Assembly (NCBI RefSeq): GCF_009296185.1
Contig: NZ_WBJR01000002.1
Span: 186,001-250,000, forward strand
DNA length: 64,000 nucleotides
Reading direction: 5' to 3'
Origin: Hydrogenovibrio sp. JE_KL2
GTDB lineage: Bacteria > Pseudomonadota > Gammaproteobacteria > Thiomicrospirales > Thiomicrospiraceae
The position numbers and the translations under genes are program-made. The notes beneath the pieces were generated by a model, which was not told the origin of the DNA, made no database searches, and saw nothing but the letters and a program-made list of their open reading frames with translations. Position 1 is the stretch's first letter. The number at the start of each line of letters is the position of its first letter. Positions 20,764-26,437 of the stretch are shown one piece after another.

Positions 20764-21336
20764 ATGATACAGCCTGCTAAAACCCTCAGCCCCAAATGGT
20801 ATGCCAAACCCTTAAAGCACAGGATGATGCTTACCAGAAGCCTGGAAGACTGGTTGTTTGATCCTTCTTCTCTAACGGCTAAGTTAAGACAAAAGTGCCC
20901 CGAACTATCGGTCAAAATCTTGTCTGAAAAATTGGAATACCCATTGCCTGATGAGCAACAACGCTTGAAAATGGCTCCCGGAGAAAAGGCATGGATCAGG
21001 ATTGTGACACTCACCTGCGGCGAGTTGCCCTTGGTTTATGCCAGAACCATCATTCCCAACTTTCAACCGGGAAATCCCTGGTTTTCACTAAAGACATTGG
21101 GGCATACACCATTAGGACATGTTTTGTTCGCAAAGGATATCAAAAACCATTATTTCCGCTCGGAATTTGAATGCCAAGATCAACGAAAAATCTGGCCTTA
21201 TCTTAGCACTAAGACTATTTTTTTATCAGAAAAAGGGAATAGATTAGCTTCTAGACGCTGCGAATTCTCCAAAAAAGGGAATTCGCTTTTATTGACTGAG
21301 GTGTTTTTACCCAACAGCTTACCGCTATTTGATTAA
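20764..21336 (+). CDS. ubiC: Chorismate pyruvate-lyase UbiC
   Basis: Splits chorismate into 4-hydroxybenzoate and pyruvate, the first committed step of ubiquinone synthesis. The 190-residue protein fits the family (E. coli 165) with an N-terminal W.....L.DWLFDPSSLTAKLR, a central EKAWIRIVTLTCGELPLVYARTIIP containing the active-site arginine region, LGHTPLGHVLF, and a C-terminal RRCEFSKKGNSLLLTEVFLP. It starts 6 bases after recG and overlaps the convergent anti-sigma gene by 4 bases. UbiA, the next enzyme, is encoded 6 kb away. Confidence 0.9.
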   Translation: MIQPAKTLSPKWYAKPLKHRMMLTRSLEDWLFDPSSLTAKLRQKCPELSVKILSEKLEYPLPDEQQRLKMAPGEKAWIRIVTLTCGELPLVYARTIIPNFQPGNPWFSLKTLGHTPLGHVLFAKDIKNHYFRSEFECQDQRKIWPYLSTKTIFLSEKGNRLASRRCEFSKKGNSLLLTEVFLPNSLPLFD

Positions 21337-22043
21337 AACTTATGGTAGCTCCATCCGTGCTGCATTTTATCGACAATTTCGTCAACTGCAGTACGGTCTG
21401 ACTCAACATTTGAAATCAACTTAATCGGATGTCCCGAATCGGCACGACGCTCCAAGGCACGCTTACAAGCAAGCAGCTTCAGATTGTCATACTTTTTCAG
21501 CATCTCAATAATTTCCGCTCGGTTTTTACTGGTCTGATCGAATAAATCAATTCCATGGTCATTTGCGACGATTTCAACCTGAGGCTTTGAAGCTGTTCCA
21601 GAGGTCTTTTCCAATAGCTGATTTGCGGTTTGCAACAAAGCTTGCACACGTGCAGGCTTGTCTGAATCAATATGTAAAATCACTTTTTTAGGTGCAAAAT
21701 TATCTGCGACCAAGCTTGACGTTACATTTCCGGCTTGCAGTTCGCCAGTTTGGTGAGACGCCACAAACCCAAGCCCAAATGCCAACGTCAAAGAAGCCGC
21801 TACTGCCCAACGAGACCCCCAACCTTTGGAAGTTTGAACATTCAATTCCGGCATGGGTGGAATATCAATTTTCTGGTAGTGCTCCAAAATCTGTTGTTTG
21901 ATCTTTCTGAGTTCGCAGACTTCTTCTTTTAATTCATCATCCTGACGCATTGCCTTTTCAAATGCATTTTTTTCTTTTGAAGAAAGGTCTCCATCAATGT
22001 AGGCATGCAGGTTTTGAACAGTAAATTTATCAAGTGCGTTCAT
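21333..22043 (-). CDS. Anti-sigma factor with periplasmic DsrE-like domain
   Basis: A 236-residue protein. Residues 1-55 (LHAYIDGDLSSKEKNAFEKAM) resemble the cytoplasmic anti-sigma domain of the zf-HC2 type without the zinc ligands. A membrane helix follows at about 79-96 (WAVAASLTLAFGLGFVA). Residues 119-236, expected in the periplasm, look like a DsrE/F domain: KKVILHIDSDKP, VEIVANDHGIDLF, a single Cys193 in LKLLACKRAL, and a closing VDEIVDKMQHGWSYHKF. This aligns with both secreted DsrE-like proteins encoded divergently, including the cysteine. It lies 2 bases after the ECF sigma gene. The anti-sigma role is inferred from position and layout. Confidence 0.8.
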   Translation of the reverse strand: MNALDKFTVQNLHAYIDGDLSSKEKNAFEKAMRQDDELKEEVCELRKIKQQILEHYQKIDIPPMPELNVQTSKGWGSRWAVAASLTLAFGLGFVASHQTGELQAGNVTSSLVADNFAPKKVILHIDSDKPARVQALLQTANQLLEKTSGTASKPQVEIVANDHGIDLFDQTSKNRAEIIEMLKKYDNLKLLACKRALERRADSGHPIKLISNVESDRTAVDEIVDKMQHGWSYHKF

Positions 22044-22045
22044 GG

Positions 22046-22618
22046 CTATTTACTCTTCTTAAGACTCACCACATTATGATGATAATGTGGAATATATTTC
22101 TCACTTGTAACCAATTTTTTCAGCTTATCACGTGCTCGGGAAAGCCTACTCATAACGGTTCCCACTGGTATTTCCATGACCTCTGCCACTTCCTGATAGC
22201 TATAACCTTGCAGGTCAACCAAAATAATAATTTCCTTTTGATCGACAGGCAAACACCCTATCGCATCGTGGATATTTTGGATGGTCTGTTTTTTGATATA
22301 CAACGTCTCAATCGATTCGGACTGCAACTCCTCCGAAAAGTCATCAACATCGACCTGTTGCCAACGTGAATTGTGACGACAGTTGTCATAAAACAGGTTA
22401 TGCATCACTTTGCACAACCATCGATCAATGTTTTCAAAGCTGGTAATGGTCTCTGCTTTTTGCAACGACTTCAGCATAGTGTCCTGCACCAGATCCTGTG
22501 CAAGAGAACCATCCTGACACCAAGCATAAGCAATACGATAGAGGTTCGCATAATGCGACTCCAAAACCGCATGCAGCTTAGTTTGATTGTTTTTTTGTTT
22601 TATCCAAGTTCTTATCAT
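22046..22618 (-). CDS. ECF-family RNA polymerase sigma factor
   Basis: A 190-residue extracytoplasmic-function sigma factor. Region 2 reads LYRIAYAWCQDGSLAQDLVQDTMLKSL, and IDRWLCKVMHNLFYDNCR continues it. Region 4 reads LPVDQKEIIILVDLQGYSYQEVAEVMEIPVGTVMSRLSRARDKLKK with a clear helix-turn-helix. The linker is short, as in ECF proteins. It is followed after 2 bases by its putative membrane anti-sigma factor and faces two dsrE-like genes across 214 bases. The subgroup cannot be fixed by eye. Confidence 0.92.
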   Translation of the reverse strand: MIRTWIKQKNNQTKLHAVLESHYANLYRIAYAWCQDGSLAQDLVQDTMLKSLQKAETITSFENIDRWLCKVMHNLFYDNCRHNSRWQQVDVDDFSEELQSESIETLYIKKQTIQNIHDAIGCLPVDQKEIIILVDLQGYSYQEVAEVMEIPVGTVMSRLSRARDKLKKLVTSEKYIPHYHHNVVSLKKSK

Positions 22619-22760
22619 TTTGATATCTTTAAAAATTCACTTTTTCCATCTTAGGCAAAAAAAAATTAGAGCACAAGCGATATTTTCAATATCAGAAAAT
22701 AATGATTTTCTTAAATAAATGGCGCTGATTTATCCATAGAAAATTGCAGTGGAACAAAGT

Positions 22761-22786
22761 GGAATAAACCTCTCCTCCCCCCCGTT
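22761..22786 (+). promoter_or_regulatory. Candidate ECF-type promoter of the dsrE-like genes
   Basis: GGAATAAAC (-35-like) and CGTT (-10-like) are separated by 17 bases counted from GGAAT. GGAA and CGT are common ECF promoter elements. A second GGAACAAA lies 10 bases upstream. It sits 50 bases before the first dsrE-like start. A low-certainty call based on general ECF promoter features. Confidence 0.4.
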
Positions 22787-22838
22787 ATTGCCATGAGTAC
22801 TCAAAGTTTTACATTTCAACTAGAAGGAAACTGTGGTG

Positions 22839-23297
22839 ATGAAATTTTTAACACGTTCGTTTATTTTGGGCTGGTTGTTCAGCCTGCTACTTTCGCCGAT
22901 GGCGATGGCAGCGCAACAAGAAGCTCCACTACCTGATACCTTTGCCGCCCATAAAGTGGTATTGCAAATCAGTGACCCTGACCCTTTTAAGCAAACTTTG
23001 GTTCTCAATGTTGCTGGCAACCTAATGAAATATTACGGCCCTGAGAATGTTGATATCGAAGTCGTAGCTTTTGGCCCTGGCTTACGTTTGCTGATGAAAG
23101 GTAATGTAAACACGCCTCGCATCAAATCAATGATGAGTACTGGTATTCGCTTCAGTGCCTGTCAAAACACACTGAACAACTTTGCGAAAAAGCTTGGGTA
23201 TACCCCAAAAATCATTGAAGGCGTACAAATGGTTCCAGCTGGTGCAGGAAGAATTCTGCAATTGAATGCTGCTGGTTACCAAATCCTTAAACCATAA
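22839..23297 (+). CDS. Secreted DsrE-family protein 1
   Basis: A 152-residue protein with a signal peptide (cleavage expected after AMA, residue 24), so probably periplasmic. The mature part follows the DsrE/F family: HKVVLQISDPDPFKQTLVLN, NLMKYYGPENVDIEVVAFGP with the GPGLRLL turn, one cysteine (Cys108, IRFSACQNTL), and the closing LQLNAAGYQILKP. Cytoplasmic DsrE relatives carry persulfide sulfur on a comparable cysteine; that role here is inference. ATG 22839 has AAGGA about 10 bases upstream; GTG 22833 is an alternative. It is divergent from the sigma operon and 23 bases before a paralogue. Confidence 0.85.
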   Translation: MKFLTRSFILGWLFSLLLSPMAMAAQQEAPLPDTFAAHKVVLQISDPDPFKQTLVLNVAGNLMKYYGPENVDIEVVAFGPGLRLLMKGNVNTPRIKSMMSTGIRFSACQNTLNNFAKKLGYTPKIIEGVQMVPAGAGRILQLNAAGYQILKP

Positions 23298-23320
23298 AAA
23301 AATAATCTTAGGAGCAAGCA

Positions 23321-23812
23321 ATGTTCAACAAAATGAAATTTTTTAAATTGATGTTTGGCTTACTGATTGCCGGTTTGGCAATGTCAGGCCCAGCTTCAGC
23401 AAACGAGCGTTACGGTGATCAAAAGGTGGTTTATCACATTAACTATGATGATCCTAAACACCAGGCAACCGTTTTGCATAACATTCAAAACAACATCAAT
23501 GCCGTCGGCGCGGACCACATTACAGTCAAAGTGGTTCTGCACGGAAATGGATTATCTTTACTGTTACTTCCTAAAGCATTAAAGACTCATCCAAAATTTC
23601 GTACTGCAAATGCGACATCTGAAATGCAACAAAAAATTGACGCTTTAAAAATGCAAGGCGTGCAATTCGATGTTTGCGCCAACACGCTTAAAGGTAAAGC
23701 CGTGGACTATAAAAAAGATCTTTATGATGTAGATACCAAAGATGTTGTGCCAAGCGGCGTTGCTGAACTTGTTCGCCTACAACAACAAGGCTATGCCTAC
23801 CTAAGACCCTAA
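23321..23812 (+). CDS. Secreted DsrE-family protein 2
   Basis: A 163-residue paralogue of the preceding protein, with a signal peptide ending GPASA (residue 27). QKVVYHINYDDPKHQATVLHN, ITVKVVLHGNGLSLLLLP, the cysteine at 119 (VQFDVCANTL), and VPSGVAELVRLQQQGYAYLRP follow the periplasmic DsrE pattern closely. A 15-20 residue insertion (PKFRTANATSEMQQ) is not present in paralogue 1. AGGAG lies 7 bases before the ATG. It is likely cotranscribed with paralogue 1 and possibly with the porin downstream. Confidence 0.87.
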   Translation: MFNKMKFFKLMFGLLIAGLAMSGPASANERYGDQKVVYHINYDDPKHQATVLHNIQNNINAVGADHITVKVVLHGNGLSLLLLPKALKTHPKFRTANATSEMQQKIDALKMQGVQFDVCANTLKGKAVDYKKDLYDVDTKDVVPSGVAELVRLQQQGYAYLRP

Positions 23813-25241: not shown

Positions 25242-25278
25242 CCTGCTACTTCTATCTCCATTGGTAGCAGGCTTTTTT
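25242..25278 (+). terminator. Terminator after the porin gene
   Basis: CCTGCTAC and GTAGCAGG form an 8-bp stem with a 14-base loop, followed by CTTTTTT. It lies in the short gap before the convergent gene. Confidence 0.88.
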
Positions 25279-26437
25279 ACTTTTCAAACTTCCTATCATA
25301 AAACTGCGCTTCAAACATAAAGGTAATATTGGGATCTGCTTGACGAAAAGCCGTATCCTGACTGAAGTCCACCCGCGGTTGAATCTCAAAGAATAACCAT
25401 TTCTTATAAATACGTTCTCGCCAGTTGAATCCTATATGGTACGACGTTAAGTGCGGTCCAACATCCTTAGTATCCCAATCCCAACCAACATGATAGGCCA
25501 CTGCACGATGCACGTTCATCGTCTGATAAAAATAGAAGGTCTGATGCAATTCATAGAATTGCTCTTTATCCCACCAAGTTCCTAGCGTCTCAGATCGAAA
25601 TAAATTTTCATGGTTAAATTGATAGTCAAAAGTTTGCTTGGATGTCAGTCCAACCCCGTCATAACTTTCCCAAAATAAGTCTTGCACCATACGGCTGTAA
25701 ATTTTATCGCTCAACTGCCATTTATAGGTCCCTTTGATACGCGCATAAGGATCGGGAGAAATACCTCTAAAATTCCAACCAAAACCGACAAATGACGACG
25801 TATAGTCCTTTACGTCCAACATATAACGCAATCCAACCGCTGTTGCCGTGTCATTATTGGCTGTTGCCGTCGCTGCGGTATTGCCGGAAACATTGGCATC
25901 CGAGCTGGCGTTTGCATAATCCTGTATGGAGTTTTCTGCCGACTGCACAATCATATTCCATCGTTTGTTGGTTCTTGGCAATGCGACTTTTGCTCGAAAC
26001 TTCACTCTGGTATCAACCTTACCATTGGCATGGAGAGTAAGAGGTGTCATGATATCCAGGCGGCTGCCTTGCGTTCGGTCAAAATCTTCATCAGAACCAA
26101 AGAAGGCATCAGCAGACTCTCCCAAATCCTCTACGTAACCGCCCACCCAATTCTGAACTTTGTCTAGATAATTGAATGTCGAATTCATCAATGGGTTAGA
26201 AGTGCCTTCAAAAAAGTATTGTTTGTTATCGGATTGAGGAGAAGCCTTTTGGGTATCGGTATCTGAAGGAAGAAGCGTTGTATTGTTTTCAAGATTTGAT
26301 GAAATTGAAGGCGATTTCGATTTCTCATTGCTTTTGGGCGTATCGGCACCTGCCAAACATGAGATCGGCCATATCAGACAAATGCCGAAACAGGTTATAA
26401 TGCTTCTAACGAAAACCAACACCTTAATTATGTCCAA
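25277..26437 (-). CDS. Predicted outer-membrane beta-barrel protein, unknown function
   Basis: A 386-residue protein with an N-terminal hydrophobic segment (ITCFGICLIWPISCLAG), then a low-complexity Ser/Asn/Lys linker to about residue 75. The remainder has alternating aromatic strands (TLHANGKVDTRVKFRAKV, YKWQLSDKIYSRMVQDLFW, YHIGFNWRERIYKKWLFFE, ending FMFEAQFYDRKFEK). This suggests an outer-membrane barrel, but I recognise no named family. The longest frame starts with TTG and no good ribosome binding site is visible, so the start is uncertain. Its first codons overlap the first codons of the divergent gene at 26430. Confidence 0.65.
   Translation of the reverse strand: MDIIKVLVFVRSIITCFGICLIWPISCLAGADTPKSNEKSKSPSISSNLENNTTLLPSDTDTQKASPQSDNKQYFFEGTSNPLMNSTFNYLDKVQNWVGGYVEDLGESADAFFGSDEDFDRTQGSRLDIMTPLTLHANGKVDTRVKFRAKVALPRTNKRWNMIVQSAENSIQDYANASSDANVSGNTAATATANNDTATAVGLRYMLDVKDYTSSFVGFGWNFRGISPDPYARIKGTYKWQLSDKIYSRMVQDLFWESYDGVGLTSKQTFDYQFNHENLFRSETLGTWWDKEQFYELHQTFYFYQTMNVHRAVAYHVGWDWDTKDVGPHLTSYHIGFNWRERIYKKWLFFEIQPRVDFSQDTAFRQADPNITFMFEAQFYDRKFEK
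26396..26401 (+). promoter_or_regulatory. -10 box for the gene at 26430
   Basis: TATAAT 29 bases before ATG 26430, lying within the 5' coding part of the divergent barrel gene. No clear -35 box. Confidence 0.4.

Follow-up and report, generated by a model that had tools for sequence, protein, structure and literature searches.

Hydrogenovibrio sp. JE_KL2 encodes an extracytoplasmic function (ECF) sigma factor together with a membrane-bound anti-sigma factor whose C-terminal 120 residues are, as judged by profile comparison and structure prediction, a DsrE domain related to two secreted DsrE-like proteins encoded next to it. The system is probably a built-in gauge of envelope sulfur compounds, in which the sensor carries a copy of a sulfur-handling protein whose expression the switch seems to turn on. 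Its genes are located in a stretch of 64,000 nucleotides, designated the window in the following, which corresponds to G000:C2:186001-250000 of the 2.44-Mb genome. The anti-sigma gene starts two bases past the sigma gene on the same (-) strand, and the genes for the secreted proteins, DsrE-A and DsrE-B, and for an outer-membrane porin are located on the (+) strand and are divergent from this pair (Table 1). A first-pass annotation made from the sequence alone had placed the sigma gene, the anti-sigma gene, and both genes for secreted DsrE-like proteins correctly, and these four stand as members of the unit; the porin gene and a predicted promoter, which also belong to it, had been left out.

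The proposed homology of the periplasmic part of the anti-sigma factor to both secreted proteins had been derived from matching segments of the three proteins, namely the first strand (KVILHI/KVVLQI/KVVYHI), the surroundings of a cysteine (LLACKRAL/FSACQNTL/FDVCANTL), and the C-termini. All of these were quoted correctly, and the similarity to both proteins is above chance by BLASTP and profile comparison. In BLASTP searches, the anti-sigma factor matched DsrE-A with an E-value of 8e-9 and DsrE-B with one of 0.006, which is weak alone, and DsrE-A matched DsrE-B with an E-value of 3e-14. A profile-profile comparison of the anti-sigma factor with DsrE-A gave an E-value of 1.2e-19 over residues 114-235 and set Cys193 opposite Cys110 of DsrE-A. 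A profile built from 33 anti-sigma homologs matched MTH1491 (1l1s) from the first strand to the last residue (E 1.9e-19) and ST0148 (2pd2) with an E-value of 1e-11. The Pfam DsrE model (PF02635) gave no match to the window anti-sigma factor alone, and it matched 7 of the 33 homologs (best E 1.2e-6). In an AlphaFold2 (AF2) model computed from 12 sequences, the predicted local distance difference test (pLDDT) score was about 95 over residues 117-236, residues 77-97 formed a helix, and the N-terminus was helical. When this model was used as the query in Foldseek, the top six matches were all DsrE-family proteins, and with VIA-align, Z-scores of 18.4 for 1l1s and 12.6 for the DsrE subunit of 2hy5 were obtained, ten DsrE/Tus entries reaching Z-scores of at least 12.0 before the next match fell to 7.1. 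Because of the profile matches, the predicted fold, and the structure matches, the objection that this end of the protein might have no DsrE fold can be set aside.

The alignment had been described as running through a single cysteine. The DsrE domain contains Cys193 only; the protein as a whole holds a second one, Cys43, which is located in the cytoplasmic part and is poorly conserved (20/47 aligned anti-sigma homologs). Cys193, by comparison, is kept in 46 of the same 47 sequences, that is, in all of those bearing a DsrE domain, the exception (L055) being a homolog without any such domain. In the curated set of anti-sigma proteins, the invariant residues are Cys193, Leu20, Gly230, and Trp231. 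Each of the 64 DsrE sequences aligned, most by far taken from these neighbourhoods, has a cysteine matching Cys193, and Cys193 aligns with the cysteine of MTH1491, i.e. with the acceptor position of the DsrE family. It is thus a candidate sulfur-binding residue.

The sigma factor has the architecture of the ECF group, with region 2 at residues 20-85 and region 4 (r4_2) at residues 114-166 and without region 3; also characteristic of this group are the adjoining gene for an anti-sigma factor and the GGAA...CGT promoter assigned to this sigma factor. The anti-sigma factor is composed of a putative anti-sigma domain (residues ~9-58), one transmembrane helix (residues 77-97), and the periplasmic DsrE domain (residues 117-236). 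Its N-terminus matches anti-sigma profiles weakly: an NCBIfam anti-sigma model gave an E-value of 1.1e-7 with the window protein, which is under the cut-off of the model, and zf-HC2 matched 29 of the 33 homologs (best E 9.8e-6). The canonical zinc motif HxxxCxxC of zinc-binding anti-sigma (ZAS) proteins was absent when the sequence of the window protein was checked. Since Cys43 is the single cysteine of this part and varies among homologs, the N-terminus is, by sequence, a ZAS-like domain without zinc ligands, and it is predicted to bind the sigma factor.

A putative promoter of the type GGAATA(A/C/T)-N12-17-CGT(T/C), oriented toward the DsrE/porin operon, was detected in 27 of 31 homologous sigma-DsrE intergenic regions, while 0.02 were expected from first-order shuffles of these regions. 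The copy in the window precedes the annotated start of DsrE-A (GTG 22833) by 72 bases; the likely start of this gene is ATG 22839. On the basis of this conserved promoter, the secreted DsrE proteins and the porin are predicted to be the output of the sigma switch. The same motif was directed toward the sigma gene in 5 of the 31 regions, and of 22 distant loci, 11 have it facing the partner genes and 13 have it facing the sigma gene, which suggests autoregulation of sigma in several lineages. A genome-wide search for GGAATAA-N12-16-CGTT yielded 10 sites, a number equal to that of the reversed-pattern control, so that the motif alone is not specific. In 18 relatives, a stricter motif points to the DsrE operon among the readable sites, the others being mostly located inside open frames, and the readable motif sites of the Thiomicrospira group did not reveal another conserved target. 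A further secreted DsrE gene (G000:C1:136058-136588) with a site 81 bp upstream was rejected as a member of the regulon: it overlaps a TATAAT box, and among the orthologs that could be read, roughly half of the total, it is confined to three close species. This gene (L154:6056-6589) lies near pitA, phoU, phoB, and phoR-like genes. Elsewhere in the genome (contig C10; L156:2064-6166), a gene for a secreted DsrE-like protein has as neighbours genes for a rhodanese-like protein, also secreted, and for two membrane proteins resembling YeeE/YedE transporters, possibly a further sulfur-handling cluster.

To describe the conservation of the system, neighbouring loci were picked solely by similarity of the anti-sigma factor, and 37 loci with a DsrE-bearing anti-sigma factor were obtained besides that of the window. 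The sigma gene adjoins the anti-sigma gene in all 37, a secreted DsrE protein is encoded beside it in 33, and an ortholog of the porin gene is present in 27; the trio of genes that the first-pass annotation proposed to look for is found elsewhere. The block recurs in Thiomicrospira, Thiomicrorhabdus, and other gammaproteobacterial metagenome-assembled genomes (MAGs) and is present in many loci of distant families of the class; in named species, nearly all loci whose anti-sigma factor is full-length have this block, and the nearest systems in named genomes include those of Thiomicrospira sp. WB1 and several Thiomicrorhabdus. In a profile search, the full-length anti-sigma factor was present in 66 of 369 sampled genomes of the class, belonging to 40 families. 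Among 299 sampled genomes of the phylum, no full-length anti-sigma factor was found outside the class, only separate DsrE proteins, and the plasmids searched gave partial matches only, in Rhizobium.

A tree was computed from 168 DsrE domains. The 79 that belong to anti-sigma factors fall into a single clade (100/97), which groups with DsrE-A-type proteins (98/85) and apart from most DsrE-B proteins; the bootstrap had not converged, and the alignment has few columns. Because these domains form a single clade, the fusion of anti-sigma factor and DsrE domain arose, most simply, only once. It probably came out of the line leading to the secreted neighbour, or arose alongside it, sensor and output having since diverged together.

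In the reading that we hold to be rather likely, the system is a self-contained ECF envelope switch that senses sulfane sulfur or thiosulfate in the periplasm, its output being the secreted DsrE proteins and the porin. The binding of sigma, the nature of the ligand, the chemistry at the cysteine, the release of sigma, and the role of the porin are inferred, and the course of events would be as follows. In the resting state, the ECF sigma factor would be held by the N-terminal domain of the anti-sigma factor in the cytoplasm. The periplasmic DsrE domain would meet reactive sulfur arising from Sox-type oxidation, in the form of thiosulfate/tetrathionate or of sulfane sulfur, e.g. polysulfide, and an adduct (a persulfide or a thiosulfonate) would form, most likely on Cys193. 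A precedent for this chemistry is provided by DsrE3A and TusA of Metallosphaera cuprina, which react with tetrathionate to give cysteine-S-thiosulfonates (PMC4175335). An altered conformation, oligomeric state, or protease sensitivity of the sensor, the latter leading to regulated proteolysis, might then free the sigma factor, which would transcribe the secreted DsrE/porin operon from GGAATAA-N12-17-CGTT/C. The secreted DsrE proteins and the porin would bind the same compound and move it across the envelope, and as the compound is drawn down, the system would be switched off again in a homeostatic loop.

The link of the system to sulfur chemistry, already assumed in the first-pass annotation, is supported by the distribution of soxB (TIGR04486), which was present in 65 of the 66 genomes that carry the system and in 87 of the 303 that lack it (Fisher p 1.7e-28, a value that ignores shared ancestry, genomes of one class not being independent). 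The spread of the system over 40 families is a better argument for the sulfur link than are the p-values. The single soxB-less genome (G116) has soxC and dsrA. In addition, a SoxB-like protein is a predicted target in two families, where a gene for a secreted SoxB-like metallophosphatase stands opposite sigma in place of the DsrE/porin operon (L193:3286-5460 and L202:4494-6626) and the ECF motif is present on both sides, toward this gene and toward sigma. These proteins matched the SoxB model below its cut-off (E 1.8e-51 for L193 and 5.2e-53 for L202) and are distinct from the true soxB products of the same genomes. At L211, a true soxB gene and the anti-sigma gene are some 2 kb apart, and two genomes of one genus (G217 and G327) have soxB within 5 kb. 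The following points, together with the shared ancestry mentioned above, weigh against the proposed sensing of sulfur compounds. The association with soxB ties the system to a lifestyle rather than to a ligand. Within the soxB-containing genomes, neither the association with SoxCD (p 0.10) nor that with reverse DsrA (p 0.055) was significant. Sox genes were not apparent in the regulon among the readable motif sites of Thiomicrospira-group genomes, 7 of the 22 distant loci had no site in the exact-motif search, and a DsrE fold with a cysteine is not by itself proof of sulfur binding.

The first-pass annotation had proposed that the secreted DsrE proteins report on sulfur or redox state in the periplasm by binding to the anti-sigma domain or competing with it, an explanation that we hold to be possible but not likely: they would form mixed oligomers with the DsrE domain of the anti-sigma factor or compete at it, and their amount or sulfur load would set the activity of sigma, as a ligand relay or as a feedback inhibitor. 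The grouping of the sensor domain with DsrE-A in the tree, the shared cysteine of the sensor and the secreted families, and the secreted DsrE gene beside 33 of 37 anti-sigma genes all agree with this explanation, as do the fold matches to DsrEFH and TusBCD, which are hetero-oligomers of homologous subunits. At some loci (L049, L052, L193, L202, L224, and L226), however, the sensor occurs without a neighbouring secreted DsrE gene, porin or other targets being encoded instead, and a partner encoded next door is therefore not obligatory. The conserved promoter points first to the secreted DsrE proteins as output, with which a role in feedback or as partners is compatible. In an extended form of this explanation, possible though doubtful in our estimation, sensor and secreted relatives would constitute a gauge across the envelope by assembling into mixed DsrE oligomers, with the sulfur-loaded proteins of the regulon serving as ligand or feedback inhibitor. 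If this were true, a metabolic carrier and its receptor would have the same fold and would go back to one ancestral gene.

The single reactive cysteine of the sensor would also suit a thiol that responds to envelope redox stress or to a thiophilic ion, for example arsenite or copper; the DsrE proteins would then have a protective role as scavengers. An arsenite response of DsrE/F-like genes is known from Thioalkalivibrio (PMC6620896). A general sensor of metal or redox stress should not, however, be confined to soxB-containing genomes, and we regard this explanation as unlikely. That the outer-membrane porin, or an anion carried by it, is what the system monitors, the DsrE domain being a docking fold only, is very improbable, as docking does not require an invariant cysteine, the porin is missing at L036, L038, L066, and L070, and the link to soxB is strong, even though the porin is linked in 27 of 37 loci and the Porin_O_P matches of some orthologs would fit.

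Porin_O_P (PF07396) matched 3 of 10 orthologs of the porin (best E 9.9e-13), the copy of the window being unmatched. The family includes phosphate porins. The AF2 model of the window porin had a pLDDT of 43, which is too low for use, and a porin profile gave no convincing match to the PDB. Convergent with the porin gene, an exported-looking protein of 386 amino acids is encoded at 25277-26437 on the (-) strand; it has no Pfam match.

Table 1 Features of the sigma/anti-sigma locus; positions refer to the window
Feature	Position	Strand	Evidence
ECF sigma factor, 190 aa	22046-22618	(-)	Sigma70_r2 E 2.8e-12, Sigma70_r4_2 E 1.5e-18; TIGR02937 above cut-off
Membrane anti-sigma factor, 236 aa	21333-22043	(-)	Profiles, AF2 model, fold matches
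Predicted cognate-sigma promoter, GGAATAAACCTCTCCTCCCCCCCGTT	22761-22786	(+)	Motif kept in 27/31 homologous intergenic regions; read directly
Secreted DsrE-A, Cys110	22833-23297	(+)	Visible signal peptide; DsrE E 2.9e-4, just under Pfam cut-off
Secreted DsrE-B, Cys119	23321-23812	(+)	DsrE E 3.3e-10; MTH1491 E 1.7e-11
Outer-membrane porin, 435 aa	23900-25207	(+)	Porin_O_P in orthologs; same predicted operon as DsrE-A/DsrE-B

Several loci vary in their layout. Two of them (L203:4081-8536 and L205:4560-8949) contain two tandem pairs of sigma and DsrE-bearing anti-sigma genes with secreted DsrE genes at both flanks, i.e. a duplicated system. In two distant genomes (L224:1790-4383 and L226:2075-4337), a secreted protein of about 550 amino acids and a smaller secreted protein are encoded opposite sigma; the two proteins of L224 gave no match in NCBIfam. 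In a Thiomicrorhabdus MAG (L043:1863-2553, also L087), the anti-sigma gene is split, with the membrane part in one open frame and the DsrE domain in the other, which is a frameshift or an assembly error.

The components of the system resemble known ones in part. MTH1491, ST0148, DsrEFH, and TusBCD share a common fold with residues 117-236 of the anti-sigma factor, and DsrEFH and TusBCD relay sulfur in the cytoplasm (PMC13047784), whereas the DsrE domain described here is joined in one protein to a transmembrane anti-sigma factor and faces the periplasm. The ECF26 sigma factors RpoE1 and RpoE4 of Sinorhizobium meliloti, which also have an adjoining anti-sigma gene and become activated during use of thiosulfate and taurine (PMC3511301), are alphaproteobacterial and have the sulfite dehydrogenase SorT as target, and no DsrE domain is reported for the anti-sigma factor. 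ECF pairs of Arcobacter likewise alter the expression of sox genes, but the paper mentions neither a DsrE domain nor a secreted DsrE target (PMC3445524); this system was compared by its published description. In the one-pass anti-sigma factor RsgI of Clostridium thermocellum, the outer domain, a carbohydrate-binding module or glycoside hydrolase, resembles the secreted machinery that is regulated (PMC12203970); unlike the present system, RsgI senses polysaccharides, possesses an autocleavage domain and no cysteine chemistry, and Sigma-I is not an ECF sigma factor. The regulators sHdrR and SoxR of Hyphomicrobium denitrificans also regulate genes in response to reactive sulfur in a thiosulfate oxidizer, but they are ArsR-type DNA-binding repressors responsive to sulfane sulfur, not a transmembrane sigma switch (PMC12423496). 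In its working, the system would resemble other one-pass anti-sigma switches, and its sensor module is apparently new. In agreement with the statement of the first-pass annotation that no system of this design is known to have been described, a literature search for ECF or anti-sigma factors together with DsrE retrieved no relevant paper joining the two, the main ECF classification, in which a mention is possible, lying outside that search.

How reduced sulfur is sensed in the periplasm, where Sox works, is poorly known in sulfur oxidizers. For Acidithiobacillus, two-component systems have been proposed (PMC6335251), and for Hyphomicrobium, cytoplasmic repressors (PMC12423496). A widespread candidate sensor whose promoter, operon, and cysteine are defined makes the question directly testable, and it offers a regulatory role for a DsrE domain as well as a context for secreted DsrE proteins.

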